From Nitrospirota bacterium (GTDB lineage: Bacteria > Nitrospirota > Nitrospiria > Nitrospirales > Nitrospiraceae), in contig JAGWTI010000001.1 in assembly GCA_028876065.1 (NCBI GenBank), forward strand, positions 1 to 64,000: a stretch of DNA of 64,000 bases, written 5' to 3'. This document shows positions 18,915 to 64,000 of the stretch, one piece after another. Each line of letters starts with the position of its first letter. Position 1 is the stretch's first letter. Under the pieces are notes generated by a model. It had not been told where the DNA came from. It searched no databases and saw only the letters and a list, made by a program, of their open reading frames with translations. The position numbers and the translations under genes are program-made.

Positions 18915-19322
18915 ATGCAAATTGCCCCGCTCCCGATCGCATACGACAAAGATTTGACCAATCTAGGCGGTCTCCAGGGTGTGGAAGGTTTGCCTTCTGA
19001 GCTGCGGCAAGCTCTGGCCAAATCTAATCGAAGTGAAGCTGAAATCAAGCAAGCGGCTAAGGAATTGGACGCCTACTTTATTTCCTATCTGATGAAGACG
19101 ATGCGTGAAACCGTGCCCAAGAAGGGACTTCTCCCCAATAAAGGCGGAGAACAGTTTTATTACTTTTATGACATGGAGATCGGGCGGTTGGCTGCCGAGC
19201 GCGGTGGGCTGGGATTCGGAGCCATGGTCATCGAGGACATGGCGCGACAACGCCCTGCGGATAGTCAAAAAAACCTCTCAAGTCCTGGGTCGGTTCAACC
19301 GATACAGGGGTCGAGCCGGTGA
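18915..19322 (+). CDS. flgJ: Rod-binding protein FlgJ, N-terminal domain only
   Basis: 135 residues matching only the rod-capping N-terminal half of FlgJ (AAKELDAYFISYLMKTMRET, GGEQFYYFYDMEIGRLAAER). The muramidase domain of enterobacterial FlgJ is absent, as in many other phyla, so a separate lytic enzyme must open the peptidoglycan. The 42-nt gap before it is AT-rich with a 7-bp inverted repeat (18883-18889 with 18902-18908). A FliA-like promoter for flgM lies inside the 3' end. Confidence 0.88.
   Translation: MQIAPLPIAYDKDLTNLGGLQGVEGLPSELRQALAKSNRSEAEIKQAAKELDAYFISYLMKTMRETVPKKGLLPNKGGEQFYYFYDMEIGRLAAERGGLGFGAMVIEDMARQRPADSQKNLSSPGSVQPIQGSSR
19278..19305 (+). promoter_or_regulatory. Candidate FliA (sigma-28) promoter of flgM-flgN-flgK-flgL
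   Basis: TCAAG (19278-19282), 15 nt, ACCGATAC (19298-19305), inside the 3' end of flgJ and 82 nt before the flgM ATG. FlgM and hook-associated genes are classical late (FliA) targets. The same TCAAG-N15-NCCGATA arrangement recurs at 36011, 36077, 37342, 37457 and 39517. Confidence 0.6.
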
Positions 19323-19387
19323 AGAGGCATGGAGGCAAAGGTCTGTCACTCTCAAGGAAGGCCTCACCGGTGGAGAGAGGGTAAGTG

Positions 19388-19690
19388 ATGGAAATTTCAG
19401 GACATGGGCGTGCACAGGAATTGGCGTCTCTCTTGCTGGGAACGCAGGATATCGACCAGCAGGCTGCCAAGCCTTCGGCGAGTTCTGCCACACAGCAGGA
19501 CCAAGTGCAAATCTCCGAGTATGCCAAGGATCTTCAGCGGATCACTTCGCTGACCAATGGCTCGGCTGACGCGAGGGCGAGCAAAATCGCGGGGATTCGG
19601 CAGGCATTGGACGCCGGAACCTACGATGTCAGCGGACGGAAAGTCGGGGATGCGTTGATTCGACAGGTTTTGACCGACGCGGTGCTGTAA
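19388..19690 (+). CDS. flgM: Anti-sigma-28 factor FlgM
   Basis: 100 residues from the ATG at 19388 (an in-frame GTG lies one codon upstream). The N-terminal half is polar and likely disordered; the C-terminal half has the FlgM signature (VQISEYAKDLQRI, then ADARASKIAGIRQALDAGTY and VSGRKVGDALIRQVL). FlgM binds FliA until it is exported through the completed hook. A strong 22-bp hairpin follows. Confidence 0.92.
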   Translation: MEISGHGRAQELASLLLGTQDIDQQAAKPSASSATQQDQVQISEYAKDLQRITSLTNGSADARASKIAGIRQALDAGTYDVSGRKVGDALIRQVLTDAVL

Positions 19691-20313: not shown

Positions 20314-22341
20314 ATGTCCGGTATCGATTCGCTGTTCCAAATCGGCCAGAGCGCCCTTCAGGCGGCTCAGCAAACGATGACGGTGATCGGCCAAAACGTC
20401 GCCAACGTCAACACGCCCGGCTATTCCAAGCAGACGGCGGTCCTGACCGAAGCCCAAGCTCAGGATGCCAGTCCGGGACAGGTGGGGAGTGGGGTGCAGG
20501 TCGCCCAGATCCTCCGTACGACGGACTCCTTCCTCGAAGGACAATTGAACCTATCCCAACAGAAGCTCGGACAGCTCGGTGCCTATCGTGACGCGCTGTT
20601 CCAGATTCAGGGGCTGTATGGCGATTCCAACGCCCAAGGGGTCGGCGCCGACCTCAACAACTTCTTCGGTGCGCTTCAGGACGTTGCCACCAACCCATCG
20701 GACCCGACTGCGCGAAACGCCTTGCTCGCCAAGGCAGCAACGTTGACGGGGGACCTCAACCAAACGGCGGCCAACTTGAACACCCAACGCAAGTCGCTTG
20801 ATGGGCAGGTTAGCCAAACGATCAATGAAGTCAACACCCTGGCCTCGCAAATCGCCGACTTGAACGTCAAGATCTCCGATGCGACGCATCGTGGCCAGAA
20901 TGCCAATGACCTCATGGACCAACGTGGCCAATTGTTGAACCAACTCGGTCGGGATATTGGCATTGCCACGACCGTGGACGCCTCGGGGCAAGTGTCGGTA
21001 TACGTTGGCCGGGGCCAAGTGCTGGTGGAGCAGGGCCAGACCCGTGCCTTGTCCACCATAGCTCGCGCTGATAACAGCGGGTTGCAGGATATCGGTTACG
21101 CGGTAGGAAGCGGGGCGACCCAGGACATCACGCCCCTGATAACGGGCGGGAAGATGAAGGGGCTGCTGGATGCGCGGGATACGATCATTCCTGGGCAATT
21201 GAAGGCGCTGGATCAGGTGACGGCCGCCTTGACCACGGAGATGAATCAGCAGCATCGGCGGGGATATGGGTTGGACGGCTCGACCGGACAGGATTTCTTT
21301 TCGCCGCTCTCGGTCAGTTCGACGATTCCCGACACGAACACGGGGACCGCTTCTGTGTCCGCCTCCGCCGTCACGGCGCCGAGTTTGTTGACGATGCACG
21401 ATTACGAGATTCGATTCTCCTCCGCCACCGCCTATTCGATCGTCGACACGACCACCGGATCGGCCGGCAAGGGCAACTATACGGGAACCGCCATCACGGC
21501 TCCTACAGCCGGCGCCCCGCTCAACATCGTGACGGGGACGAACGACACCTTGACCGTATCGGTGGATGGCACGGCATCCGGCACCATCACATTGAGCGGG
21601 GCTGCGTCGCCGGGAAAAGCGTATGCCAGCGGGGCGGACCTTGCCACCGAAGTGCAGAACAAGATCAATGCGGATGCAACGTTGGTTGCGGCAGGCAAGA
21701 GCGTCACCGTCACCTACGATACCAGTGCGAACCGGCTGGTTATCACCTCCGATTCCGCTGCGGCCAGCTCGGCCGTGAATGTGACCGGCGGGACGGCACG
21801 CACGGCTTTGGGGCTGGCCAGCGGGACCAGCACGGCAAGCTCCGGAAGCTACGGCAGTCCGTCGACCTTGAACGTGGACGGAATCCAGGTCACGGTCACC
21901 GGCACGCCCGCGGCGGGCGACAAGTTAAAGGTCAACTCTTATACGGGCAGTGCCACGTCGATATCGGTCGCGTTGACCGACGCCAAGCAAGTGGCGGCGG
22001 CAGCCAGTCTGAGCGGAGGCGCGGGCGACAACGGCAATGCGCTGGCGCTGGTGGCCTTGCAGAGCAAGTCCATTGCGGATCTTGGGGGGACTACTTTTAC
22101 CGGGGCGTACCAAAACGCCGCCACGTCCCTCGGCGTGTCCGCCCAGAATGCGGACAGTAGCCTCAAAGCCCAACAATCGCTGGATCTGCAATTGCAGGGA
22201 TTCCGCGGCCAGGTTTCCGGAGTGTCGATGGATGAGGAACTGACCAGTATGATGCAATATCAGCGGATGTATCAAATGGCGGCCCGGTTGATTCAGATGA
22301 CCGATGAGATTCTACAGACACTGGTGGCGATCAAAAAATAG
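20314..22341 (+). CDS. flgK: Hook-associated protein 1 FlgK, enlarged
   Basis: 675 residues, longer than the usual 450-600. The start (GIDSLFQIGQSALQAAQQTM, NVANVNTPGYSKQTAVL) and the end (MDEELTSMMQYQRMYQMAAR, LIQMTDEILQTLVAIKK) are standard. The middle contains an inserted beta-rich, Thr/Ser-rich domain (about residues 345-545). Part of it (from 21541, NDTLTVSVDGTASGTITLSG) is almost identical to a segment of FlgL. FlgK forms the hook-filament junction with FlgL. Confidence 0.95.
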   Translation: MSGIDSLFQIGQSALQAAQQTMTVIGQNVANVNTPGYSKQTAVLTEAQAQDASPGQVGSGVQVAQILRTTDSFLEGQLNLSQQKLGQLGAYRDALFQIQGLYGDSNAQGVGADLNNFFGALQDVATNPSDPTARNALLAKAATLTGDLNQTAANLNTQRKSLDGQVSQTINEVNTLASQIADLNVKISDATHRGQNANDLMDQRGQLLNQLGRDIGIATTVDASGQVSVYVGRGQVLVEQGQTRALSTIARADNSGLQDIGYAVGSGATQDITPLITGGKMKGLLDARDTIIPGQLKALDQVTAALTTEMNQQHRRGYGLDGSTGQDFFSPLSVSSTIPDTNTGTASVSASAVTAPSLLTMHDYEIRFSSATAYSIVDTTTGSAGKGNYTGTAITAPTAGAPLNIVTGTNDTLTVSVDGTASGTITLSGAASPGKAYASGADLATEVQNKINADATLVAAGKSVTVTYDTSANRLVITSDSAAASSAVNVTGGTARTALGLASGTSTASSGSYGSPSTLNVDGIQVTVTGTPAAGDKLKVNSYTGSATSISVALTDAKQVAAAASLSGGAGDNGNALALVALQSKSIADLGGTTFTGAYQNAATSLGVSAQNADSSLKAQQSLDLQLQGFRGQVSGVSMDEELTSMMQYQRMYQMAARLIQMTDEILQTLVAIKK

Positions 22342-22350
22342 GAGGAGACC

Positions 22351-24114
22351 ATGCGGGTTTCCGATTCGCAAATATTCGGGGGCGTATTGGACAATCTTCA
22401 GCAGATTCGGCAGAAGATGGTGGACACCGAGAACCAGATTTCATCTTCAAAGAAAATCGTCCAGCCTTCGGATGACCCGACCACGTTCGGCCAGATCATC
22501 GGGGATAAACAGACGCTCGCCATGATCTCCCAGCGTCTCCGAAACATCCAGTTCGGCGGTCAGCGGTTGAGCGCCGCGGACACGGTCTTGGGCAACGTAT
22601 CGCAATCGCTGACTCGGATCAAGGAATTAGCCGTACAATTGGCGAGCGATACGAATACGGCGTCGGATCGCGCCACCGGAGCGTTGGAAGTGAAGCAGAT
22701 ATTGGCGCAACTCCAGCAAGCGGCCAATACGGACGTCGGAGGCCAAAATCTTTTCGCCGGGACCGCTACGCATGGGCGCGCGACCGGGGTTTCGATCACT
22801 CCGCCTACGACCGTCACGAGCGGAAGCAACGACACCTTGACCGTTTCGGTGGATGGCACGACCTCCGGAACTATCACGGTGACGGCCGGCTCTTACGCCA
22901 CAGGAGCTGCGCTTGCGTCACAGGTCCAGACTCAAATCAATGCCGACGCGACCTTGAAGGCCGCGGGCAAGAGCGTCACGGTCACGTTCGACACCGATCA
23001 TCTCGTGATTGCATCCAATAGTTCCGGCGGCTCCTCCACGGTCCAGGTCACCGGTGGGAGCGCTGTCGGCTCGCTTGGGTTGAATGGAGGAAGCGTTACG
23101 AACGGGGCCTTGCCGTTCGCGTTACGGGCCGTTACGTCGGCCGGCGCGGGTAATACCGGCGGAGCTTTGATTTCGCAAGGAAGCGTGAGTGATTCCAACG
23201 CGGCGACGTTTGACGACTATGTCATCAAATTCAGCGGGGCCAGTACTTTCGACGTCTATGATGTCTCCAAGCCGGTCTCCGTGTCGGTCGCCGGGGCAAA
23301 CACAGGGGGTGCCGTCGCGTCGGATGCAGGCGTGATCGATTCCTCCAAGGTCAAGCTGGACACCTATACCATTCAGTTTACGTCTGCCAGCCAGTATTCC
23401 GTCATCGATGCGACGACGGGCGCGACACTTTCGTCGGGGAATGCCTACACCTCCGGCGCGAACATCGACTTCGACGGCCTCCGCGTGAACCTCATCGACG
23501 GGACGAACGGCGGACCCCAGAGCGGGGATAGCTTCTCCGTTTCCTTGGGAGCGCAAAAGGTGGCGGCGAGTCAGACCTATACCAGTGGCAGTGCGATCAC
23601 CTTTGATGGGCTCCAGATGTCGATCAAAAACGGGACCGCCGCACCGGCAGCCGGTGATCTCTTTCGAGTCCAAACCGGCATCCAGTACCAGGGGAACAGC
23701 GGGCAGCAGGCCATCGAGGTCGGCGACAATCAAACCATCAAGACCAATCTGCCCGGCAATCAGGTCTTTAGCGGTTCCGCCATTGACCTGTTTGCCGCGG
23801 TGAAAGGCCTGGCCAATGCATTGACCGGCAATTACCAGGGCGGCATCAGTCAGGCCAACGCCGACGCCGATACCGCTACAAACCAGGTGGTCTCCGCTCA
23901 GGGCGAAGTCGGGGCGCTATCGAATCGGCTGACCGCGACCACGTCTACGCTCACTCAATTTCAGGGGCTTGTGACAGCGAATCTGTCGAACAAGCAGGAC
24001 ACCGACGTCGTACAAGCGATTTCTCAGCTCCAACAACAGCAACTGGCGCTCCAGGCGACGGCGCAAGTGGCCAGCGAAATGTTCAACGATTCGTTGCTGC
24101 AGTTTCTCAAATAG
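22351..24114 (+). CDS. flgL: Hook-associated protein 3 FlgL, enlarged
   Basis: 587 residues against about 300-400 in most bacteria. N-terminal helices (MRVSDSQIFGGVLDNLQQIR, LSAADTVLGNVSQSLTRIKE) and the C-terminal D0 helix (ISQLQQQQLALQATAQVASE) are flagellin-like. Several inserted beta modules fill about residues 155-450. One (from 22828, NDTLTVSVDGTTSGTITVTA) is shared with FlgK; two further units repeat the theme DDYVIKFSGAS / DTYTIQFTSAS. It joins FlgK to the filament. Confidence 0.93.
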   Translation: MRVSDSQIFGGVLDNLQQIRQKMVDTENQISSSKKIVQPSDDPTTFGQIIGDKQTLAMISQRLRNIQFGGQRLSAADTVLGNVSQSLTRIKELAVQLASDTNTASDRATGALEVKQILAQLQQAANTDVGGQNLFAGTATHGRATGVSITPPTTVTSGSNDTLTVSVDGTTSGTITVTAGSYATGAALASQVQTQINADATLKAAGKSVTVTFDTDHLVIASNSSGGSSTVQVTGGSAVGSLGLNGGSVTNGALPFALRAVTSAGAGNTGGALISQGSVSDSNAATFDDYVIKFSGASTFDVYDVSKPVSVSVAGANTGGAVASDAGVIDSSKVKLDTYTIQFTSASQYSVIDATTGATLSSGNAYTSGANIDFDGLRVNLIDGTNGGPQSGDSFSVSLGAQKVAASQTYTSGSAITFDGLQMSIKNGTAAPAAGDLFRVQTGIQYQGNSGQQAIEVGDNQTIKTNLPGNQVFSGSAIDLFAAVKGLANALTGNYQGGISQANADADTATNQVVSAQGEVGALSNRLTATTSTLTQFQGLVTANLSNKQDTDVVQAISQLQQQQLALQATAQVASEMFNDSLLQFLK

Positions 24115-24225
24115 CGTAACGGGAGAGAATGCAAAGAAGGGGTCATCCAATAAGCCGGGTGAGTGGCTCCGCACATAGGGAGCGCGGGAACGGCGCCGCA
24201 TATTCGGACGCCAGGGAGGGCGACC

Positions 24226-24477
24226 ATGCTAGTCCTGACACGGAAGTTAGGGGAAGGCATCACCATCGGAGACGACATCCGGGTGGTAGTGCTGGAAATG
24301 AAAGCCGGACAGGTCCGGTTGGGGATCGAGGCGCCCAGCGACGTCCAGGTCCATCGCGACGAGGTCTACGCGAAGATTCTCGACGAGAACAAGCAGGCCG
24401 CCAGAGCGCAACCGGCGGCAACCGAGGCGTTGAAACACCTCGGGCGTCCCATACAGGCTGAGGCGAAGCGCGTGTGA
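24226..24477 (+). CDS. csrA: Carbon storage/translational regulator CsrA
   Basis: 83 residues from the ATG at 24226 ([20 protein letters not shown]), with AGGGAGGG upstream. Core strands and the RNA-binding region ([20 protein letters not shown]) are intact; the C-terminus is about 20 residues longer than in E. coli CsrA. With FliW (next gene) it controls flagellin translation; two GGA-rich sites in the fliC leader (59136, 59253) are candidate targets. Confidence 0.95.
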
Positions 24478-24525: not shown

Positions 24526-24966
24526 ATGAAAATCAGCACGAGCCGATTCGGAGAGATCGAATTTCGAGACGAGGTGATGCTCCGGTTCCCATCCGGGATC
24601 ATCGGGTTTCCCCAGTCCACCCGGTACATCATTCTGGACCATGACCGAGAGGCGCCGTTCAAATGGCTGCAGTCGGCGGACGAAGGGGGCCTGGCCTTTG
24701 TGATCATGGACCCGCGCATGTTCAAGCCGGACTACCGGGTCATGCTGGAGCCGGCCGTTCTGGCCGACCTGGGGTCGCCGGCCGACGAGGAGTTGATCCT
24801 GTTCGTACTGCTGACCGTGCCGCCGGGAGACCCGGATCGGATTACGGCCAATTTGCGCGCCCCGGTCGTCGTGCATGAGCCGACCAGGCTGGCCAAGCAA
24901 ATCATCCTGCACGACGACCTGCCCACCCGCTATCCGCTCTTTGCCCAGCCGGTGGCCTGCCCGTAA
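24526..24966 (+). CDS. fliW: Flagellar assembly factor FliW (CsrA antagonist)
   Basis: 146 residues with the FliW pattern: FGEIEFRDEVMLRFPSGIIG, FPQSTRYIILDHDREAPFKW, LQSADEGGLAFVIMDP and a C-terminal part with NLRAPVVVHEPTRLAKQIIL. FliW binds either flagellin or CsrA; free FliW sequesters CsrA and so releases flagellin mRNA. Adjacent to csrA as in many phyla. Transcription converges on the minus-strand gene at 25018. Confidence 0.95.
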   Translation: MKISTSRFGEIEFRDEVMLRFPSGIIGFPQSTRYIILDHDREAPFKWLQSADEGGLAFVIMDPRMFKPDYRVMLEPAVLADLGSPADEELILFVLLTVPPGDPDRITANLRAPVVVHEPTRLAKQIILHDDLPTRYPLFAQPVACP

Positions 24967-51977: not shown

Positions 51978-52651
51978 AAACCGCTGTCGTGGTGGGAGCG
52001 ACCGGTAATCTCGGCCGGGCTGTCTGTGACGCCTTGGTCCAGCGAGGCTACCACCTCGATCCCTTGTGGTTGAACGAACGCCACCCGGATGCGGCCAGCC
52101 GGGAGGCGTATAAGGCGCTCCCGTCCCCCATACACTTGGCGGTCTATCTAGCTGGCGTCAATGTGGTGGAACGGATGGAACTGTTGACCGATGCCCAGTG
52201 GGATCATGTCCTGGACGTGAATTTGAAAGGCGCGTTCCTGTTTGCGCAAGCGGCGTTTCCCGCATTGTGCGCGGCCCGCCGCTCCTCGTTGATCACGATT
52301 TCTTCCATCATGGCGACGCATCCCTATCCGGGGCGAACGGCCTACGCCGCGGCCAAGGCCGGGTTGGAAGGATTGACTCGCGCATTGGCGATCGAGTGGG
52401 GGCCTTACGGCATCGCCACCCATTGCCTCCGCCTGGGACACTTGGCCGGCCTAATGAAATCCACCGCGGCGAACCCTCAGTTGCTCGACGAGGTGAAACG
52501 ACATACCCCGTTGGCCAAATTGATCGAGCCGGAGGAGGTGGCCCGGTACGTCTGTTGGCTGGCCGATGGAGGCTGCCACAGCGTATCGGGGAGCGTTGCG
52601 GATTTTGATCCGGGCTATACGATCAACCGGTGGCCGTTGCAGACGTGTTGA
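51962..52651 (+). CDS. Short-chain dehydrogenase/reductase
   Basis: 229 residues. NAD(P)-binding VVVGATGNLGRAVCDAL, catalytic region ITISSIMATHPYPGRTAYAA with Y-x3-K in YAAAKAG. Related to PtmA-type oxidoreductases of flagellin modification loci by context only. Acts on a sugar intermediate by inference. Confidence 0.85.
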   Translation: MGKDLKTAVVVGATGNLGRAVCDALVQRGYHLDPLWLNERHPDAASREAYKALPSPIHLAVYLAGVNVVERMELLTDAQWDHVLDVNLKGAFLFAQAAFPALCAARRSSLITISSIMATHPYPGRTAYAAAKAGLEGLTRALAIEWGPYGIATHCLRLGHLAGLMKSTAANPQLLDEVKRHTPLAKLIEPEEVARYVCWLADGGCHSVSGSVADFDPGYTINRWPLQTC

Positions 52652-52665
52652 AGGAGGGGCTGGCT

Positions 52666-53892
52666 ATGCGCGATGCGGTGCTGATCATTGGAGGGGGATT
52701 GCTGCAGATTCCGGCGATCCATATCGGCCGCGACATGGGCCTGGTAGTGGTGGTTACGGACGGCAATCCCAAGGCCCCCGGGATGGAGTTGGCCGATGAA
52801 GCCGTCCCGCTCGATATTTACGACCTCGCCGGCCACCAACGGCTGGTCACGCAGCTTGCCGCCCGCTACCGTTTGTGCGGCGTGTTTGCCGAGGGGGCGG
52901 ATGTCGAACTGACGGTGGCCGTAACGGCGCAGCAGGCCGGCCTGCCCGGGATTCCGGTGGAGGCGGCCCGCCGATGTAAAAACAAGGCGCTGATGCGCCA
53001 GGCCTTCGATCAGGCCGGACTCGGGCAGGTACCCTGGGGCGAAGCCAGCACGACCCAGGAGGCTCGGTCCTGGGCGGAGAAGATCGGTGTTCCCGTGGCA
53101 ATCAAGGCGGTGGACAATTGCGGGTCTCGAGGGTTTACGCGCGTGACGGCGTTGGATGACGTCGAATCGGCGTTCTTGCGCGCCGCGTCTGCCTCCACCA
53201 CAGGGACGGCCTTGGTGGAAGCCTGTCTCACGGGTACGGAGCAAAGTGTCGAACTGTTGTTCGATGCGGCCGGCTCCTGCCATCGGTTGAACGTCGTCGA
53301 CCGGATTTTCGGCGAGGGGCCGTGGGCGGTCGAACTGGGCCATGTGAATCCTTCTCAGCTTCACGGCGCGGTCCAACAGGACCTCTTGGCGTTGGCCGAG
53401 CGGGCGGCGGTGGCGGTGGGCGTGCGCTTCGGCGCCTTCAAGGCCGATACGATCCTGACCGCTGATGGACCCAGGATTCTCGAAGTGACGGCCCGTCTGT
53501 CCGGCGGCTTCGACTGTCAGTACACCACACCTTTGGCGACGGGGCGAAACTTCATCCGGGCCGCTTTGAGCCTCGCCGTCGGCCGCGCGCTGGATCCGGA
53601 GGATTTGCGCGGCTCGTGGCAGCGGTGCGCCGCGGCGTGGACGGTCTTCCCAGAGCCCGGAGTCGTGCAGGCGATCACGGGAGTCGATGCGGCACTGGCG
53701 CTTCCCGGCGTCAAACATGTGTTTCTCCGAAGCCGAGTGGGAGAGGTGATTCCGCCGTATCGAGACTGTGTCGCGCGGCCGGCGTTCGTCATCGTGGAAG
53801 GGCACGATGCCGACGAGGTGCTGGCGAGGGCGAAAGCGGCGGCGGCCATGGTTCAGATCAAGACCGTCATGGAGCCGGTACCGGTGGCCTGA
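52666..53892 (+). CDS. ATP-grasp ligase
   Basis: 408 residues from the ATG at 52666 (SD AAGGAGGGG). Pre-ATP-grasp Rossmann (VLIIGGGLLQIPAIHIGRDM), central ATP-grasp (IPVEAARRCKNKALMRQAFD, GVPVAIKAVDNCGSRGFTRV, LTADGPRILEVTARLSGGFD). The family makes carboxylate-amine or similar bonds using ATP. No GNAT acetyltransferase (PseH) is visible in the cluster, so this ligase might acylate the amino sugar instead; that is inference. Confidence 0.8.
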   Translation: MRDAVLIIGGGLLQIPAIHIGRDMGLVVVVTDGNPKAPGMELADEAVPLDIYDLAGHQRLVTQLAARYRLCGVFAEGADVELTVAVTAQQAGLPGIPVEAARRCKNKALMRQAFDQAGLGQVPWGEASTTQEARSWAEKIGVPVAIKAVDNCGSRGFTRVTALDDVESAFLRAASASTTGTALVEACLTGTEQSVELLFDAAGSCHRLNVVDRIFGEGPWAVELGHVNPSQLHGAVQQDLLALAERAAVAVGVRFGAFKADTILTADGPRILEVTARLSGGFDCQYTTPLATGRNFIRAALSLAVGRALDPEDLRGSWQRCAAAWTVFPEPGVVQAITGVDAALALPGVKHVFLRSRVGEVIPPYRDCVARPAFVIVEGHDADEVLARAKAAAAMVQIKTVMEPVPVA

Positions 53893-53930
53893 AATATGTA
53901 TCCTGCGGAACGAGGCAATCAGTAGAGACT

Positions 53931-56285
53931 ATGCAAATTCACAGGACCATCCCACGGGGCCGGTTGCTCCTCTATCCGGTCTTTCATTTGAACTTGGCCT
54001 TCTCATCCATTCCCGAGGAGGTCTACGCCAGGGTTGTGGACCGATGCTATTGGCCGTTGCTCATGCTGCTGGAAGAGTTCTCCAGTTTCAAAGTGGGCAT
54101 AGAGTGTAGCGGCTATACGCTCGAACAGATTGCCGCGATTGATGAATTATGGGTGAGGGATTTGCGTCGTTGGTGGGAAGAAGGACGCTGCGAATTTATC
54201 GGCTCTGGCTATGCCCAAAGTATTCTCCCGCTGATCCCAGCTTCCGCCAATCAGAAGAACTTGGAGTTAGGACAGATCGCCTATCAGAAAATTCTGGCCC
54301 GGCGTCCCGAGACTGCGTATGTCAACGAGCAGACATATTCGGGTGGGCTGGTCAGTTTATACAAGCAAGCCGGATTTTCCCGCCTCATTATGGACTGGAA
54401 TAATCCTTACAAGTATCACCATTTCCCCAAAGAGTGGCGGTATCAGCCCCAAATGATCCAAGGCTTTGATGGCGCTGAGTTGGCCCTTGTCTGGAACAAT
54501 TCTATCGCATTCCAGAAATTTCAACGCTATGCGCATGGCGAGCTGACATTGGACCAAGTCATGGCGTTTCTGCTTTCCCACTGGTCACCTGACGAGACTC
54601 GTGCCTTTCCCCTGTATGGCAACGATGCGGAGGTTTTTGACTATCGACCGGGAAATGATGGGGTCGGTCCGAATAAGGGGGAAGAATTTGACCGGATCCG
54701 GCGGTTGCTCGAAGTCCTTTCAGCCGATGGCCGAGTTGCCTTTGCGACGCCGGCTGAGGTCGCAGCGCTATTGCAACCTCAGGCTCCCAAGCTCAGGCTT
54801 GAGAGCCCGGAGTGGCCGATTCCGACCAAGAAGCAGGAACGGTACAACGTGACTCGCTGGGCTGTGACGGGGCGTGATGGCGCCAGGCTTAACAGCCAGT
54901 GTCAGCAGCTCCATCAGGCGCTGGAGGGATTGGAGGGCATGTCGCATTGTTTGGAATGTCCAGTGGACAGCCTGCCCCTCTGGCGGGATCTCTGTGCGCT
55001 CTGGGGGAGTGATTACAGGACCCATACGACCGATGCGAAGTACGAAGCCTTTGCCCGCCGGCTGGGAGATGTTTGGGGCGGCATTGGTCGGTCCAGGTCA
55101 GGGTTGATCGAGCGCATTCCTCTTGAAGGAGATTTTGCGTTGATGAATGTGCTCCCCATTCCATGGATTGGCGAGCCGTGCCGCCTGCCATTGCGGTTTG
55201 GACCAGGAGTTGTCGAAGCGGATATTGTGCTGGAGGTGGATGGGCAGGAAGTACCCACGCAAGTTGAAGAGCCTCAACGGTATCGTGACGGAAGCCTCCG
55301 GCAAGCACTGGTAAGTTTTTGTCCGCGCCTCGCCCCTGGGGCGATTGCACAATGTCGGGTTCGCTCGGTCAGGGGCGCTAGCCTTCTCGGGCGGGCGGAG
55401 TGGGGTGGAGCAACGATCGACACCCCAGCACTTACCGTCCAGCTTCTGCCGAGCAAAGGCGGCACACTGAGTGCGGTGACCTTTAAGCAAGTGTCCACGG
55501 TTCCGCTCTGTGGATGGGTTCCGCATGGCTATTTTGAAGACATTGCCTATGGCGTGGATTGGTTCACAGGTGATGTCGTTCTAGTCCAGAAAAATGGACG
55601 GCAGGTGACCGATCTGGCCCAGTCCACGATCGAGTGGCCAGATGGCGGAGCCTGGCCGATTGCGGTACCTGTCCGAGTCAAAACGGTGACCCCAATTGGG
55701 GAGATTATCAAAACCTACCGGTTTTATCAGGCAGTGCCTCGCGTAGATGTAATCTACGATTTTCGCTGGCGCGATATCGAACCTTTGTCACTGCGGGCCG
55801 GCATTGTGACGGCTCTGCCGACCGCGTTCGCGCAGGCATCGGCTTTTTATGCCACTGTGAACGGCGGGACGACCATCGAGCAGTTTGCCTTGAACGGCCA
55901 TGCGGTTACACATGGGCAGGCGGTGAACAGTCTGATTACGGCGCGCCATGGGTTAGGGGCAACTGAGGGCTGGGTCAGCATGGGCGATGCGGACAAGGGG
56001 GTGGCGACGATCCTACGGAAGTACCATACGTATGCCATCCCGATGGTGGAATACCGGGAACTGGACGAAGGGCTATTTTTCCAAATTACCCATTCCTTGG
56101 GTGAAACCGACGAGACAGCGCGAACCTTCTGGCGAGGGCACAGCCGGTTTTCGTTGACCCTACTGGCGCATCGGAACGATTTGGGTTCAGTCAGGACCAG
56201 GAGCCGTATGATCAACCAGGGTTTGATTCTGCGCGACGGCGGGGAACAGGCCAGGGTTCGGCTCGCCCACGAGGCCTCGCTTTAA
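53931..56285 (+). CDS. GH57/GH38-like glycoside hydrolase-fold protein
   Basis: 784 residues from the ATG at 53931. N-terminal (beta/alpha)7-like barrel (HLNLAFSSIPEEVYARVVDR, CEFIGSGYAQSILPLIPASA), with Glu in AYVNEQTYSGGL and Asp in YGNDAEVFDYRPG at the places of GH57 catalytic residues. The C-terminal half is a beta-sandwich like GH38/57 tails. No signal peptide. Base composition is visibly more AT-rich than neighbours, suggesting separate origin. Substrate unknown; no transglycosylase proof. Confidence 0.65.
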   Translation: MQIHRTIPRGRLLLYPVFHLNLAFSSIPEEVYARVVDRCYWPLLMLLEEFSSFKVGIECSGYTLEQIAAIDELWVRDLRRWWEEGRCEFIGSGYAQSILPLIPASANQKNLELGQIAYQKILARRPETAYVNEQTYSGGLVSLYKQAGFSRLIMDWNNPYKYHHFPKEWRYQPQMIQGFDGAELALVWNNSIAFQKFQRYAHGELTLDQVMAFLLSHWSPDETRAFPLYGNDAEVFDYRPGNDGVGPNKGEEFDRIRRLLEVLSADGRVAFATPAEVAALLQPQAPKLRLESPEWPIPTKKQERYNVTRWAVTGRDGARLNSQCQQLHQALEGLEGMSHCLECPVDSLPLWRDLCALWGSDYRTHTTDAKYEAFARRLGDVWGGIGRSRSGLIERIPLEGDFALMNVLPIPWIGEPCRLPLRFGPGVVEADIVLEVDGQEVPTQVEEPQRYRDGSLRQALVSFCPRLAPGAIAQCRVRSVRGASLLGRAEWGGATIDTPALTVQLLPSKGGTLSAVTFKQVSTVPLCGWVPHGYFEDIAYGVDWFTGDVVLVQKNGRQVTDLAQSTIEWPDGGAWPIAVPVRVKTVTPIGEIIKTYRFYQAVPRVDVIYDFRWRDIEPLSLRAGIVTALPTAFAQASAFYATVNGGTTIEQFALNGHAVTHGQAVNSLITARHGLGATEGWVSMGDADKGVATILRKYHTYAIPMVEYRELDEGLFFQITHSLGETDETARTFWRGHSRFSLTLLAHRNDLGSVRTRSRMINQGLILRDGGEQARVRLAHEASL

Positions 56286-56305
56286 CCCTCAGAAAGGGAG
56301 CCGCG

Positions 56306-58963
56306 ATGACGACTTATGAGAAAAACCTCGAGGCACTCGACCTCCGCCATCCGGAACTGGCTGCGTTGCTCGGGACTGACATTTCCATGGACCACATTCA
56401 GGTGGCGTGGGCAAGCAGCGGGGCGGCGAGGCTGCTGGTTACGACGGAATCGGGGGTGCGTGCCGTTCACAATGAGGAGGATCCAGAAGCAGTGGCGGAT
56501 CGGACGGTGGACAAACTGGATCTGGAGTCCGGGGTGACGGTGCTCCTCGGAATGGGGCTTGGTTATCTGGCGAAGGCCCTTGCGGCTCGGCTCAAGCCCG
56601 GTGTGGCTTTGCTGGTCTATGAGGCAGACCCGGGCATCTTTAAAACCGCCCTGCAGCTCCACGACCTGACGGAATTTCTGAGCTCGCCTCGGGTGAAGGT
56701 GCTCGTTGGGCCGGCGGCGCGGTTGGAATCGGAATGCTACCGGTTTCTACTGCTCACCGGCGGAACCGTCCGCGTGGCGCGCGCGGAATCTTCCTTTCGC
56801 TTGGCGCCGGATTTGTACAAGGCTAAGTACGAAAAGGAATTGTTGCCGTTTCTCGAGGGCGCCCTGACGAATATGTTCACGGTGGGGCGGTTCGGTCCTT
56901 TGTTTACCAAGAATCTTTTGGAAGGGATTCCACACATTGCGCTGTCCTCAGGGGTCATCGAACTGCGCGATCTCTTCGCCGGCATTCCGGCCATCCTGGT
57001 CGCGGCAGGCCCCTCGCTGGAAAAGAACGTCTGTCATGTAAAAGAGGCGAAGGGGCGGGCCGTCATTATCTGTGCCGACACGGTGTTGGGCTACCTGCTT
57101 GAACGAGAGATCGTCCCCGACTTCGTCGTCAGCGTGGATGGGCAGACCCGCACCTACGATAAATACGAGAACGTGGACATTCCTCCGGATATTGCGCTCG
57201 TCTATCACCCGGCTTGCAACGACAGTATTTTTAAGCATTTCCCGGGTCCGATGTTCGCCATGTCGGTCGGAATGTTGGCCTACAAGTGGATCGAGCATTG
57301 TTGGCCTGACAAGGGGTCGATCGAGAGCGACACGCAATGCCAGATGCACCTGGGATTCAATCTGGCCGAATGGATGGGATGCAATCCCATCGTCATCGTT
57401 GGCCAGGACCTGTGCTGCACGGATAATCTCATGCACGTTCGAGGCGGGAGTTACCTGACGCCGGAGGAAGAGGCGCAGCATGTGGAAAAGGGGCATCGGA
57501 CGGAGAATATCTTCGGCGAGCCGGTCAGAGCCTATCCGAATTTTTTGATTTACAAGGCGACCTTCGAACGGAAGATTCGCGAGTCCCGCGCGCGCTGTAT
57601 CCATGCTACCGAGGGAGGCCTGAAACTGGAGGGCGCAGAAATCCGCCGTTTAGCCGATGTCGTCGAAGAATATTGCACGCACCGATCCGTCGATGTGCCG
57701 TCCGTCCTCCGACCGCTTCGGGCTCGTACCGGATCGCCGGCCTGGGACGTCCTGATTGAAGAAGTCCAGGGACGGGAAAGGGATCTGTACCGGCTGGAAC
57801 GGGTTTCCACGCGTCTGTGTCGCGTGCTGGAGGAGATCGCCGTCATGCGGAAAGAACAGAACGGCGTGACCAGCGATCTCGAACGACTGACGCAACAGGC
57901 CCAACGGTTGACCGACTTGGTGCCTCGATATGGAAAAGCCTTGGGGCTCATGCAAATGGTGGATTTTGGACTGGAATTGTTCATGTGCCAGGAGGATACG
58001 GGGGCCATCGATCAGATTGAGGATCAGGAGATTCGGCTGGACAGGCAGATCGACCGGGCTCGTCGGTACTACGGGAGTCTGAGGCGACTGACGCCGGCTT
58101 TGCGCGAATATGTGACCCGCCTTCGCAAGCGGGTGGCCGGGTTGCGAGAGCTGGAAAAGCCTTTTGGCGGTCACGGCCATGCAACCGATCTTGCCGTCGA
58201 TCCATCGGTGCGTGCGGAGCGATACGAAGCGCTGGAACTGTTCGCTCAGGCGGCTGCTTGCCTGCCGGATCATCCGACAACCGAGTGTCTGGCCAGCCTT
58301 TCTCTTCGGCTGGCTCTTGCCCTGAATCAGATCGGTCGAGCGCGTTCACTGGTCAACGAAGTGCGCCGCCGTTTCCGGAATAATGGTGCACTCGACGCGT
58401 TGTGCCAACGCGCACAGGACGCCTGGCAGGCGTGGCAAGATCGACGAGAATCGGCGGTGCAATCTATCGTCGACGTCCGCGCAGGAGCGCTGGATGCCGG
58501 CGATTTCTACCTCCGTGTCAAAGAGTATGGGCGGGCGGCATCGGCCTACCGCGAGACGTCGGACAATCCAGCGGTAAGCAAAGAGATACGCGGAGAGGCA
58601 CTTTACCGACTGGCCCGCACGCTGCAACTTCAACATCGAGACGAGCGAGCCGTGGCGGCGTTGGAAGAGGCGCTTGCCGTGGCGCCGGCCGATCCCCGCA
58701 TCTATTTCGAGTTGGGCGTCATAGCATTGGGGCAAGGGCTTGTGGCGCCGGCCGTTCGGTTTTTTCAAAAGGGTGAGGACCTGTCTTTGGGAGAGCCGAC
58801 GTTCAGCGAAGCCGCCGGCGCGGTGCTGCTCGCCGCCGGTGCATCCCATGAGGCGGTCGCATTTTATGAGCGGGCCGTCGAAAAGGAACCGGGCAATACC
58901 GAGTACCTTCGGGGAGTGGCGCGTTGTTACGAGGATGTCTTTGCCTCCGCGCATTCCGCCTAA
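56306..58963 (+). CDS. Motility accessory factor (MAF, DUF115) flagellin glycosyltransferase
   Basis: 885 residues. N-terminal MAF region (LLGMGLGYLAKALAARLKPG), DUF115/MptE-like core (AILVAAGPSLEKN, DFVVSVDGQTRTYDKYENVD, NPIVIVGQDLCCTDNLMHVR), coiled coil (about 490-620) and TPR-like repeats to the end (from about residue 740; EALYRLARTLQLQHRDERAV). MAF proteins transfer nonulosonic acids to flagellin in Campylobacter and others. The gene ends 304 nt before fliC, its likely substrate. Confidence 0.9.
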   Translation: MTTYEKNLEALDLRHPELAALLGTDISMDHIQVAWASSGAARLLVTTESGVRAVHNEEDPEAVADRTVDKLDLESGVTVLLGMGLGYLAKALAARLKPGVALLVYEADPGIFKTALQLHDLTEFLSSPRVKVLVGPAARLESECYRFLLLTGGTVRVARAESSFRLAPDLYKAKYEKELLPFLEGALTNMFTVGRFGPLFTKNLLEGIPHIALSSGVIELRDLFAGIPAILVAAGPSLEKNVCHVKEAKGRAVIICADTVLGYLLEREIVPDFVVSVDGQTRTYDKYENVDIPPDIALVYHPACNDSIFKHFPGPMFAMSVGMLAYKWIEHCWPDKGSIESDTQCQMHLGFNLAEWMGCNPIVIVGQDLCCTDNLMHVRGGSYLTPEEEAQHVEKGHRTENIFGEPVRAYPNFLIYKATFERKIRESRARCIHATEGGLKLEGAEIRRLADVVEEYCTHRSVDVPSVLRPLRARTGSPAWDVLIEEVQGRERDLYRLERVSTRLCRVLEEIAVMRKEQNGVTSDLERLTQQAQRLTDLVPRYGKALGLMQMVDFGLELFMCQEDTGAIDQIEDQEIRLDRQIDRARRYYGSLRRLTPALREYVTRLRKRVAGLRELEKPFGGHGHATDLAVDPSVRAERYEALELFAQAAACLPDHPTTECLASLSLRLALALNQIGRARSLVNEVRRRFRNNGALDALCQRAQDAWQAWQDRRESAVQSIVDVRAGALDAGDFYLRVKEYGRAASAYRETSDNPAVSKEIRGEALYRLARTLQLQHRDERAVAALEEALAVAPADPRIYFELGVIALGQGLVAPAVRFFQKGEDLSLGEPTFSEAAGAVLLAAGASHEAVAFYERAVEKEPGNTEYLRGVARCYEDVFASAHSA

Positions 58964-61613: not shown

Positions 61614-61683
61614 ATGTCAGGCCGGTCAGGCGGTGGGCGGATAGGCTGTCTCACTGCGTCGGCCTTTGCGGAAAGGGAAGGTC

Positions 61684-64000
61684 ATGGCCACTACGACGGG
61701 GGTTTCGTCTGGAACCGGGCTGGTCTCCGGTATTAACTATAGCTCGATCATCTCGGGCATCGTCGCCGCCGATCAACGACCGATTACCCTCTTGCAGCAA
61801 CAAGAATCGAATCTGCAAAGCACCGAAACGGAGTTTTCCAAGCTCAGCCTGAATCTCTCCAATCTGAACGGAGCCGTCAGCGCGCTCTCCCAGGTCGGCA
61901 CCTTCAACTCCAACACCGTCTCGGTCTCCAACTCCACTTCCGGCGCGTCGCTCTTGTCTGCCTCCGCGGACAGCACGGCGGTACCGGGTCTCTATCAGGT
62001 AAAGGTGAGTCAGTTGGCTCAGGCGAGCTCCATCGCGTCCCAAGGATTCGTGGACCAGACCACGACGGCCGTGTCCAGTTCCGGTGGGACCTTCACGTTT
62101 CGGATTGGAGCGGCGGGACAGGCCACCAGCGTGGCGGTCACCTCGACCATGACGTTGGCGCAGTTGCGGGATGCCATCAATGCGGCCAACGGCGGCGCGA
62201 CGGCCTCGATCATCAGTACGGGATCCGCGTCCGCGCCCTATCGCTTGGTCCTGACCGCGAAGAAGCAGGGGGCGGCCAATTCCGTTACGGTCACAAGCAA
62301 TCCGACGACGTTGGATTTTGTCAACAAGAAGATCGGCGCGGCCTACGGGGCGACCACCAACAGTTTCACCGGCACCGTCAGCTCCAATGCCGGCAACAAT
62401 TATACGGGGAGCACCAACAAGTCCGTGCTGGTTCAAATCGTGTCGGGCGGCGCGGCCGGCACGGCCACGTACAAGTATTCCACGGACGGAGGGATTACCT
62501 ATTTGGGAGCCAACGGGGCTGCGTTCAACGGCTCCAACGGAATTGCCACGCAGTCCACTCTCACGAATTACCTGGATGGCTCGGCATCCGCCAACTCGAC
62601 CAACGAGGGAGCGCAAATCGCTTTCGGCACCGGCACATTGGCGGCGGGCGACACCTTTTCCATCGATGAATTCAATCCGACCCTGCAATCGGCCCAGGAC
62701 GCTGTCATTACGACGGGCAATCAAACGCTGACCCAATCCAGCAATACCTTTACCGGAGCGATTCAGGGGGTGACGCTGAATCTGCTGCAAGCCGATAGCA
62801 GCCAGACCGTCAACGTGACGGTCGGGACGAATACCAGCAACATCACGGGGAAAGTGAACGACTTCGTTACGGCGTATAACCAAGTCATGAGCTATTTAAA
62901 TGGTCAACTGTCGTACGATCCGAAGGGAGGGCCGGCGCAGCCGCTCTTGGGCGAAGGGATCGCGATTCAGCTCAAGCAAAAGCTTCAGAGCCTGATTACG
63001 GATCGAGTGCCGGGCAGCAGCGCCGCCTTGACCGGCCTTGCAACCGTCGGGGTCACGTCGGATCCTATGAACGGACAATTAACCTTCGACTCCAGCAAGT
63101 TCGCCGCGGCCTTGAGCGCCAACGGCCTGACGAACGTGACCCGCCTTTTCGTCGGATTGGGGGCTCCCGACAACCCCGCCGTTCAGTATCTGAGCAAAAC
63201 CGCCGATACACAACAAGGGAGTTACGGCATTGTCGTCAGCACGGCACCGCAAAAAGCGACGGTCATCGGTGGCTCGGTGGTGCCGGCTGGCGGGATTGCA
63301 GCCGGCGAAACCGTGACCGTCAGTCTCTATTCCCATGCCACGCAAGCCGGGAATACACCGCTGGCCACCAGCGTCACGCTCGCGGCCGGGAGCAAAATCA
63401 GCGATATCGTGAATGCACTGAACAGCGCTTTTACGACAAACGGGCTGGCCTTGAGCGCATCCAATAATGCCGGGAAGGTGCAGCTCACGTCGACCAACTA
63501 TGGGGCCGATACCAAGATCGTGGCCATGTCGACCGCCGCAAACAACGGTAGCCAGTCCGGCATCGGGACGACCCCTCTGACTTCGTCCGGCGTGGATATT
63601 GCGGGGACCATCAACGGTCATGTGGCGACGGGCTCCGGGGCGGTGCTGACCGGTGCTGCTGGTTTTCCTGAAAGCGGGTTGCAAGTCAGCGCTCCGGTTG
63701 CCGCGAGCGGCTTGTACGGGACCGTTACGATTTCGTCCGGCATCATGGACCAGATGACCAATGTGTTGGCCGCGGCAACTCAGAGCAACGGCAGCATCCA
63801 AACCCGCATTTCGGGGATCAACGATCAAATCACCCGGCTGCAAGGCCAGGTCGCTCAAAAACAAACCCAGTTGAATACGGAGCAAGCCACTTTGACGGCG
63901 CAGTTCAACCAGCTTGAGGTGACGCTCGGCCGGCTCAAGGCCCAGAGCGATTCGCTTACCCAAGGCGTCAATCAACTCTATGCCTTGGCGACAGCCATTG
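61684..64000 (+). CDS. fliD: Filament cap protein FliD (partial, 3' end outside window)
   Basis: The frame is open from the ATG at 61684 to the window end (at least 772 codons). FliD N-domain: GLVSGINYSSIISGIVAADQ, PITLLQQQESNLQSTETEFS. Middle flagellin-IN-like modules (FTFRIGAAGQATSVAVTSTM, TLTQSSNTFTGAIQGVTLNL). The end shows the C-terminal coiled coil (QITRLQGQVAQKQTQLNTEQ). It caps the filament and folds flagellin. Longer than typical FliD (450-650 residues). Confidence 0.95.
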   Translation, partial: MATTTGVSSGTGLVSGINYSSIISGIVAADQRPITLLQQQESNLQSTETEFSKLSLNLSNLNGAVSALSQVGTFNSNTVSVSNSTSGASLLSASADSTAVPGLYQVKVSQLAQASSIASQGFVDQTTTAVSSSGGTFTFRIGAAGQATSVAVTSTMTLAQLRDAINAANGGATASIISTGSASAPYRLVLTAKKQGAANSVTVTSNPTTLDFVNKKIGAAYGATTNSFTGTVSSNAGNNYTGSTNKSVLVQIVSGGAAGTATYKYSTDGGITYLGANGAAFNGSNGIATQSTLTNYLDGSASANSTNEGAQIAFGTGTLAAGDTFSIDEFNPTLQSAQDAVITTGNQTLTQSSNTFTGAIQGVTLNLLQADSSQTVNVTVGTNTSNITGKVNDFVTAYNQVMSYLNGQLSYDPKGGPAQPLLGEGIAIQLKQKLQSLITDRVPGSSAALTGLATVGVTSDPMNGQLTFDSSKFAAALSANGLTNVTRLFVGLGAPDNPAVQYLSKTADTQQGSYGIVVSTAPQKATVIGGSVVPAGGIAAGETVTVSLYSHATQAGNTPLATSVTLAAGSKISDIVNALNSAFTTNGLALSASNNAGKVQLTSTNYGADTKIVAMSTAANNGSQSGIGTTPLTSSGVDIAGTINGHVATGSGAVLTGAAGFPESGLQVSAPVAASGLYGTVTISSGIMDQMTNVLAAATQSNGSIQTRISGINDQITRLQGQVAQKQTQLNTEQATLTAQFNQLEVTLGRLKAQSDSLTQGVNQLYALATAI

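Follow-up and report, generated by a model that had tools for sequence, protein, structure and literature searches.

The window analysed here, a stretch of 64,000 nucleotides (nt), comes from a Nitrospirota bacterium of the family Nitrospiraceae (assembly GCA_028876065.1, contig JAGWTI010000001.1, positions 1 to 64,000 of the forward strand). In it, the genes for the two hook-filament junction proteins of the flagellum, flgK and flgL, adjoin one another, with flgN upstream of the pair and csrA and fliW downstream. Each of the two proteins carries one copy of a segment of ~95 residues, here called the module. FlgK scored 341.9 bits against TIGR02492 (curated cut-off 170.75) and FlgL 200.3 bits against TIGR02550 (curated cut-off 127.2), which places both in their families.

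20314..22341, + strand: flgK, hook-associated protein 1 (HAP1), 675 amino acids (aa), with FlgK_D1 and Flg_bbr_C domains
22351..24114, + strand: flgL (HAP3), 587 aa
21526..21828, + strand: module in FlgK, aa 405-505, from BLASTP and alignment with relatives
22813..23094, + strand: module in FlgL, aa 155-248, from BLASTP and alignment with relatives

The initial annotation had proposed that FlgK and FlgL share an inserted module, and this was borne out at the level of both DNA and protein. Two DNA repeats link the genes, one matching at 87% over 55 nt (21541-21595 and 22828-22882) and the other at 71% over 102 nt (21622-21723 and 22894-22995). When the proteins were compared by BLASTP, 70 of 126 aligned positions were identical (expect value, E, of 4e-29), and the Smith-Waterman score of module against module was 269, with a mean of 49 and a maximum of 86 over 300 shuffles. 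Judged by their sequences, FlgK aa 405-505 and FlgL aa 155-248 are homologous, and the boundaries listed above are wider than the segments originally pointed out. A search of the genome itself at E up to 1 returned two places only, flgK and flgL. Against FliC, FliD, their Flagellin_IN stretches, and the rest of FlgK and FlgL, the modules gave z scores of -1.1 to 3.4; the top score outside the modules (88, FlgK module against the whole of FliC) equaled the best of 300 shuffles. Serine and threonine make up 28.7% of the FlgK module and 33.0% of the FlgL module, compared with 19.3% and 20.1% in the remainder of the proteins. There was no clear signal of foreign base composition, the guanine-plus-cytosine content being 64.0 (FlgK) and 61.3 (FlgL) in the modules and 60.2 and 58.6 in the rest.

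It is very improbable that the shared segment is merely a common Flagellin_IN motif. Both segments are inserts of flagellar proteins, as Flagellin_IN (PF07196) is, and the FliC and FliD of this genome carry that domain. Yet PF07196 matched neither FlgK nor FlgL nor any of 13 module sequences, and the genome's own Flagellin_IN stretches scored near the shuffle level (z of -1.1 to 2.4), so that the shared segment is not equally similar to all such domains.

Recent exchange between the neighboring genes had also been suggested as the origin of the likeness. For the module as a whole, this did not hold when both genes were aligned with those of relatives, for the following reasons: (i) in all 51 of 51 FlgK/FlgL pairs, each module was nearer to the ortholog of another species than to its neighbor, in both directions, and in none of the 51 were the same-genome copies nearer than orthologs, as recent conversion would have them, the 33-nt patch described below excepted; (ii) own pairs were like random pairs, both in 12 genomes (nt p 0.17, aa p 0.30) and in 51 loci (nt p 0.58, best 55-nt window p 0.18), and when an own pair was set against the nearest neighbor's FlgL, the own value was higher in 21 loci and lower in 24, with six pairs uncounted; and (iii) in a tree of 41 modules, the first FlgL copies lay on one side of a branch (support 89/90), and the four groups together needed 3 changes, the minimum possible. 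The modules thus group by gene, and recent exchange of the whole module was rejected. A slight excess pointed the other way, third positions at shared residues being somewhat more alike in own pairs (p 0.033, 12 genomes).

Within FlgK, the module and the remainder of the protein differ in grouping. Outside the module, genomes G000 (the window), G003, G010, and G028 form one clade (100/100), with G000 and G003 joined at 85/87, whereas for the module itself G000 has the common type, and G003, G010, and G028 (loci L033, L037, and L045) share a divergent one. From these sequences, module replacement in FlgK of the latter three is possible. An approximately unbiased (AU) test did not reject a single clade for the four modules (p 0.364; the group was defined with the data already in view). 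When an origin for the divergent module was sought, only FlgK/FlgL-sized frames came up, the best outside its own having 64% identity.

The strongest local resemblance between the two genes is confined to eleven consecutive codons (encoding NDTLTVSVDGT) that differ at one base.

21541..21573, + strand: 33-nt patch in flgK, 32/33 identical to flgL 22828-22860
22828..22860, + strand: 33-nt partner patch in flgL, 32/33 identical to flgK 21541-21573

We assessed this patch with a simulation that was given the residues and the codon usage of ten window genes, across 12 genomes and four measures. The 33-nt window was unusual (p 0.0013), as were the 55-nt window and the segment score (p 0.004), and with the codon usage of FlgK and FlgL alone the values were 0.0004 and 0.0024. 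The longest exact run was not unusual under the two codon usages (p 0.07 and 0.06). This genome's best 55-nt window (48/55) lies above all 2550 cross pairs of the 51-locus set, although locus L075 has the same own value and, in another set, 2 of 168 cross-genome pairs reached it. In genome G003, of the same genus, p was ~0.02 on three of the four measures, and in the other ten genomes it was 0.12 or more. Outside the patch, codon sharing within the module is at the level seen between genomes (15/42 versus 0.38). A recent conversion or exchange event between the two genes is therefore an unlikely source of the modules' likeness in this genome: the patch, the 55-nt window, the values from G003, and the third positions speak for it, and the codon sharing elsewhere in the module, the gene-wise tree, the null pairing tests, the ten unremarkable genomes, the equally similar cross-genome pairs, and the ordinary length of the exact run speak against it. 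With 12 genomes and four measures tested, the patch itself gives only a hint, suggestive and not firm, of a short conversion tract laid over an old resemblance.

To what family the module belongs is indicated by weaker sequence matches and by predicted structures. No Pfam family matched it over threshold. DUF3383 (PF11863) matched 8 of the 13 module sequences at E up to 1 (best 1.3e-7), and PHROG 19400, of unknown function, also matched 8 of the 13 (best 2.9e-5). A close phage relative was sought by tblastn of the FlgK module against 50,697 phage records, with nothing at E 0.01. Structural modeling, which had been recommended as a check, gave a mean predicted local distance difference test (pLDDT) of 78.2 for FlgK, with ends below 50, and of 87.9 for FlgL. 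Both modules have the same predicted order of elements, beta-beta-beta-alpha-alpha-beta-beta-beta: in FlgK, strands at 411-417, 425-427, and 435-437, helices at 440-453 and 455-459, and strands at 464-469, 474-479, and 488-492; in FlgL, strands at 161-167, 175-177, and 180-182, helices at 185-198 and 200-204, and strands at 209-214, 217-222, and 230-235.

When the FlgK model was compared with known structures, residues 353-510 matched the tail sheath of the Pseudomonas phage Pa193 (Z 10.3, 2.7 Å, 114 aligned), and residues 364-510 matched the sheath of phage E217 (Z 10.1, 2.4 Å, 113 aligned). Residues 385-522 matched the Vibrio flagellin FlaB (Z 8.3, 2.6 Å, 96 aligned), and residues 384-509 matched Pseudomonas aeruginosa FliD 103-229 (5fhy; Z 7.2, 3.2 Å, 104 aligned), both near or under Z 8, where likeness may be a common arrangement only. 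The predicted FlgK copy resembles in fold the FliD Head 2 and phage sheath lateral domains. In the parts of PMC12846349 that concern it, the extra lateral domain of phage sheaths is described as a seven-stranded beta-sandwich flanked by a helix that also occurs in nozzle proteins, auxiliary capsid proteins, FliD, and flagellin; the sheath part matched by the FlgK model is probably this domain. The two sheath fold matches and the DUF3383 matches are features in common with it; two differences are that FlgK and FlgL are host proteins and that the sequence from the window lies under the DUF3383 cut-off.

The position of the module in FlgK became apparent from the units around it. The initial annotation had noted that DYEIRFSSAT, DDYVIKFSGAS, and DTYTIQFTSAS repeat across FlgK and FlgL, and this was confirmed by unit scores of 96-119 (intervening parts omitted), against shuffled maxima of 55-57, with 0 of 1000 shuffles as high. 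These DYEIRF-type repeats are a known D2-like domain, present twice in FlgL with one copy nested in the other.

21388..21489, + strand: first half of the FlgK D2-like beta-sandwich (DYEIRFSS...), before the module, from unit comparison and Salmonella alignment
21835..21948, + strand: second half of the FlgK D2-like beta-sandwich (STLNVDGIQV...), after the module, from unit comparison
23206..23286, + strand: first half of the outer D2-like copy of FlgL (DDYVIKFSGAS...), from unit comparison
23356..23556, + strand: inner D2-like copy of FlgL (DTYTIQFTSAS...), nested in the outer copy, from PF21158 and unit comparison
23557..23694, + strand: second half of the outer D2-like copy of FlgL, from unit comparison

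PF21158, the FlgK D2-like domain, matched FlgL in two stretches at 31.2 bits (gathering cut-off 24.2; best stretch aa 316-397, 2.2e-7). The Pfam scan of FlgK gave no PF21158 match, but the D2 halves of FlgK do match the FlgL copies and also align to the parts of Salmonella FlgK flanking the gap. When a profile built from 35 FlgK proteins was aligned to the Salmonella protein, positions 5-373 and 514-673 were covered, with ~16 Salmonella residues between and no aligned counterpart for positions 374-513. Since Salmonella FlgK aligns only on either side of it, the module lies as an insertion within a loop of the FlgK D2 beta-sandwich. The likeness of the FlgL and FlgK D2 domains has already been published; as far as the relevant passages of PMC6155364 go, the same DYEIRF-type units are concerned, and for Burkholderia the authors propose quasi-homotypic FlgK-FlgL D2 contacts. 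FlgL in the window departs from the D2 described there in having two nested copies, and both proteins do so in having the extra module. The plan of FlgK here also recalls P. aeruginosa FliD, in which, according to the section of PMC5072837 on its architecture, a FlgK-like Head 1 carries a flagellin-like Head 2 as a loop insertion, just as D2 carries the module. The differences are that the module lies here in FlgK and FlgL rather than in the cap and that profile searches detected no sequence kinship with that FliD.

We then asked how widely the module occurs. In a set of 61 genomes (the genome of the window and 60 relatives), it was present in 15. TIGR02492 matched in 26 of the 61, two of them only weakly (G012 and G044, other rod or hook proteins by length), and TIGR02550 was over its cut-off in 24. 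FlgK and FlgL were surveyed in one stretch each from 23 relatives and the own genome, leaving out the second FlgK of G006; the FlgK of G011 is apparently split over two frames, and the FlgL of G021 and the FlgK of G028 are cut by a contig end. With the own genome included, the module was in both genes in 12 of 24, in FlgL only in three (G011, G029, and G048), and in neither in nine. Its insertion site is constant, from aa 155-161 in FlgL and at ~400-505 in FlgK (G014 and G028 being numbered differently because of the start and the contig end). The impression that both proteins are much larger than usual holds against Salmonella (chains of 553 and 317 aa) but not among module-bearing relatives: in the 12 genomes with the module in both genes, FlgK is 664-675 aa long in 10 (the exceptions being G014, with an untrimmed start, and G028, which is cut) and FlgL 587-829 aa. 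In seven of the 24 genomes, FlgL reaches 805-829 aa and contains three members of the module family, of which the second and third have diverged strongly. Three-module FlgL proteins were seen at L037, L038, L039, L045, L046, L047, and L053, at two of which (L046 in G029 and L038 in G011) the adjoining FlgK lacks the module. A tie to a decorated filament was considered and found not to be strict: among the 20 of 24 genomes with a flagellin-like frame (so classed because it fell below the FlgL cut-off), the FlgL module occurred in 7/7 with a frame of >600 aa and also in 5/13 with a short one.

Among named genomes, scanned as the best 80 of 263 relatives chosen for matching the module, the best matches were in Nitrospira and other Nitrospirota. 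Of these 80 loci, 54 held FlgK or FlgL and 26 a FliD-like matching frame. The module was in both junction genes at 50 of the 54, in FlgL only at two, in FlgK beside a cut FlgL at one, and in a FlgL without FlgK in the stretch at one; a few of the 54 are the same records as genomes of the first set. Among the named loci, L110, L104, and L130 share their records with G048, G028, and G067. A FliD-type start was visible in 24 of the 26 FliD-like loci, the remaining two being cut (L119 and L138); all five that were Pfam-scanned had FliD_N and FliD_C, and one of these (L125) showed DUF3383 over its module (2.5e-6). L137 is the sole Nitrospirota locus among the 26; the others are Pseudomonadota, mostly named Gammaproteobacteria. 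In a phylum sample of 295 genomes, 58 matched the module at 1e-6, and all 44 matches from the own family had two or three module places, counted irrespective of gene. In other Nitrospirota families, the module was in FlgL beside a FlgK without it at 7/7 FlgK/FlgL loci (L141-L147), and FliD carried it at five loci (L148-L152). Weak copies were found twice in a FlgL-like frame (L153, where the adjoining cut FlgK lacks the module) and in an 807-aa FlgK (L154), and a further two weak copies lie in the hook protein FlgE of another Nitrospirota family (L155:1739-3721). The initial annotation had advised looking for the module in flagellin and FliD; by sequence it had no match in the own FliC or FliD, which did not stand out from shuffles, but some other Nitrospirota and Pseudomonadota do have it in their FliD.

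Taken together, the resemblance very probably reflects an old, inherited decoration domain on the junction proteins rather than a recent swap between flgK and flgL. On this reading, both proteins hold a single copy of an ancient, mobile surface domain, the FlgK copy in the D2 beta-sandwich loop and the FlgL copy between D1 and the doubled D2. The two copies would have diverged before the sampled genera of the family, each being passed down on its own from then on. FliD of other bacteria contains a member of this domain family, which also resembles a phage tail sheath domain and the outer domains of flagellin. In more modest terms, an old domain is found here at a new site, and any sign of later exchange is slight and uncertain. 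In the open-access papers searched, with the terms used, we found no description of the module in Nitrospira FlgK or FlgL. As a refinement, the FlgK module might be an ancient within-operon copy of the FlgL module, which is plausible but somewhat doubtful: FlgL carries the module more widely (without FlgK in three of the 15 module-bearing genomes and at all of L141-L147), but FlgK modules are not nested inside FlgL modules in the wider tree, where the forks are weak, and FliD is an equally possible source of the FlgK module.

Several results weigh against an old domain inherited separately by the two genes. Besides the 33-nt patch and the low Z values of the FlaB and FliD matches, these are the following: (i) FlgK modules do not lie on one side of a branch in the 41-module tree (2 changes), and in the wider tree the deep forks are weakly supported and rest on few columns; (ii) the FlgK module of the window scored 24.5 bits against DUF3383, under the Pfam gathering cut-off of 34.9; (iii) module profiles compared with solved chains did not pick up any from flagella and reached a sheath (9khy) at no better than E 0.92, which a wider module profile no longer finds; and (iv) in fold searches with FlgL, D1-driven matches fill the lists, with no sheath among the matches listed (50 each).

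The modules would form an extra outer layer, a decoration around the rings of FlgK and FlgL. The Salmonella junction model has 11 copies each of FlgK and FlgL, as given in the part of PMC12221982 that describes it, and FlgL D2 is proposed to be an outer decoration, according to the discussion of that domain in PMC6155364. Equivalent modules of the stacked rings may touch, perhaps like-to-like, and could stiffen, shield, or cover the joint. The phrase "matched decorated hook-filament junction proteins" used at first is therefore a fair inference as to decoration and only partly apt as to matching, since FlgL can carry the module without FlgK. A bolder proposal, which we regard as rather doubtful, is that in Nitrospiraceae the junction has come to be built like the head of the cap protein, FlgK D2 with its module mirroring FliD Head 1 with Head 2, and with the stacked, matched FlgK and FlgL modules forming a continuous outer collar, the module family being exchanged among FlgK, FlgL, FliD, the hook protein, and phage sheaths, and short conversion tracts continuing.

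Other flagellar genes of the window surround this pair or lie toward its end. Upstream are a 135-aa FlgJ-like protein (18915-19322) consisting of the rod-binding part alone, with no further Pfam domain at E 0.001, and a reading frame (19385-19690) that by eye resembles flgM. Directly after flgL follow csrA (24163-24477; Pfam CsrA, 87 bits) and fliW (24526-24966; FliW, 122 bits), a pair that elsewhere controls flagellin translation. Farther downstream, the region 52630-58963 holds ATP-grasp and glycosyl hydrolase 57 genes and then an MptE-like gene (56306-58963) with C-terminal tetratricopeptide (TPR) repeats, just upstream of the flagellin gene. MptE-like genes are linked to flagellin glycosylation, and this region is possibly a candidate for that function. 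Because the modules are rich in serine and threonine and an MptE-like gene lies in the window, glycosylation of the modules is a further possibility. The FliD frame (61666-64000), which extends 17 bases beyond the end of the window, carries Flagellin_IN and showed no sequence match to the module in the own-genome search or the shuffle scores.

For the reading of genomes, these results advise caution, as similar neighboring genes need an ortholog tree before recent exchange is claimed. For the flagellum, they provide a clear example from nature in which several components of a single rotating tube make use of the same surface domain, and they tie the junction proteins to a domain that, in the text of PMC12846349 devoted to it, is noted in FliD, flagellin, and phage sheaths. 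FlgK and FlgL, stacked and bearing the same module, would also provide a test case for like-to-like binding of outer domains at the junction, which has hitherto only been proposed, for D2, in the passages of PMC6155364 on that domain.

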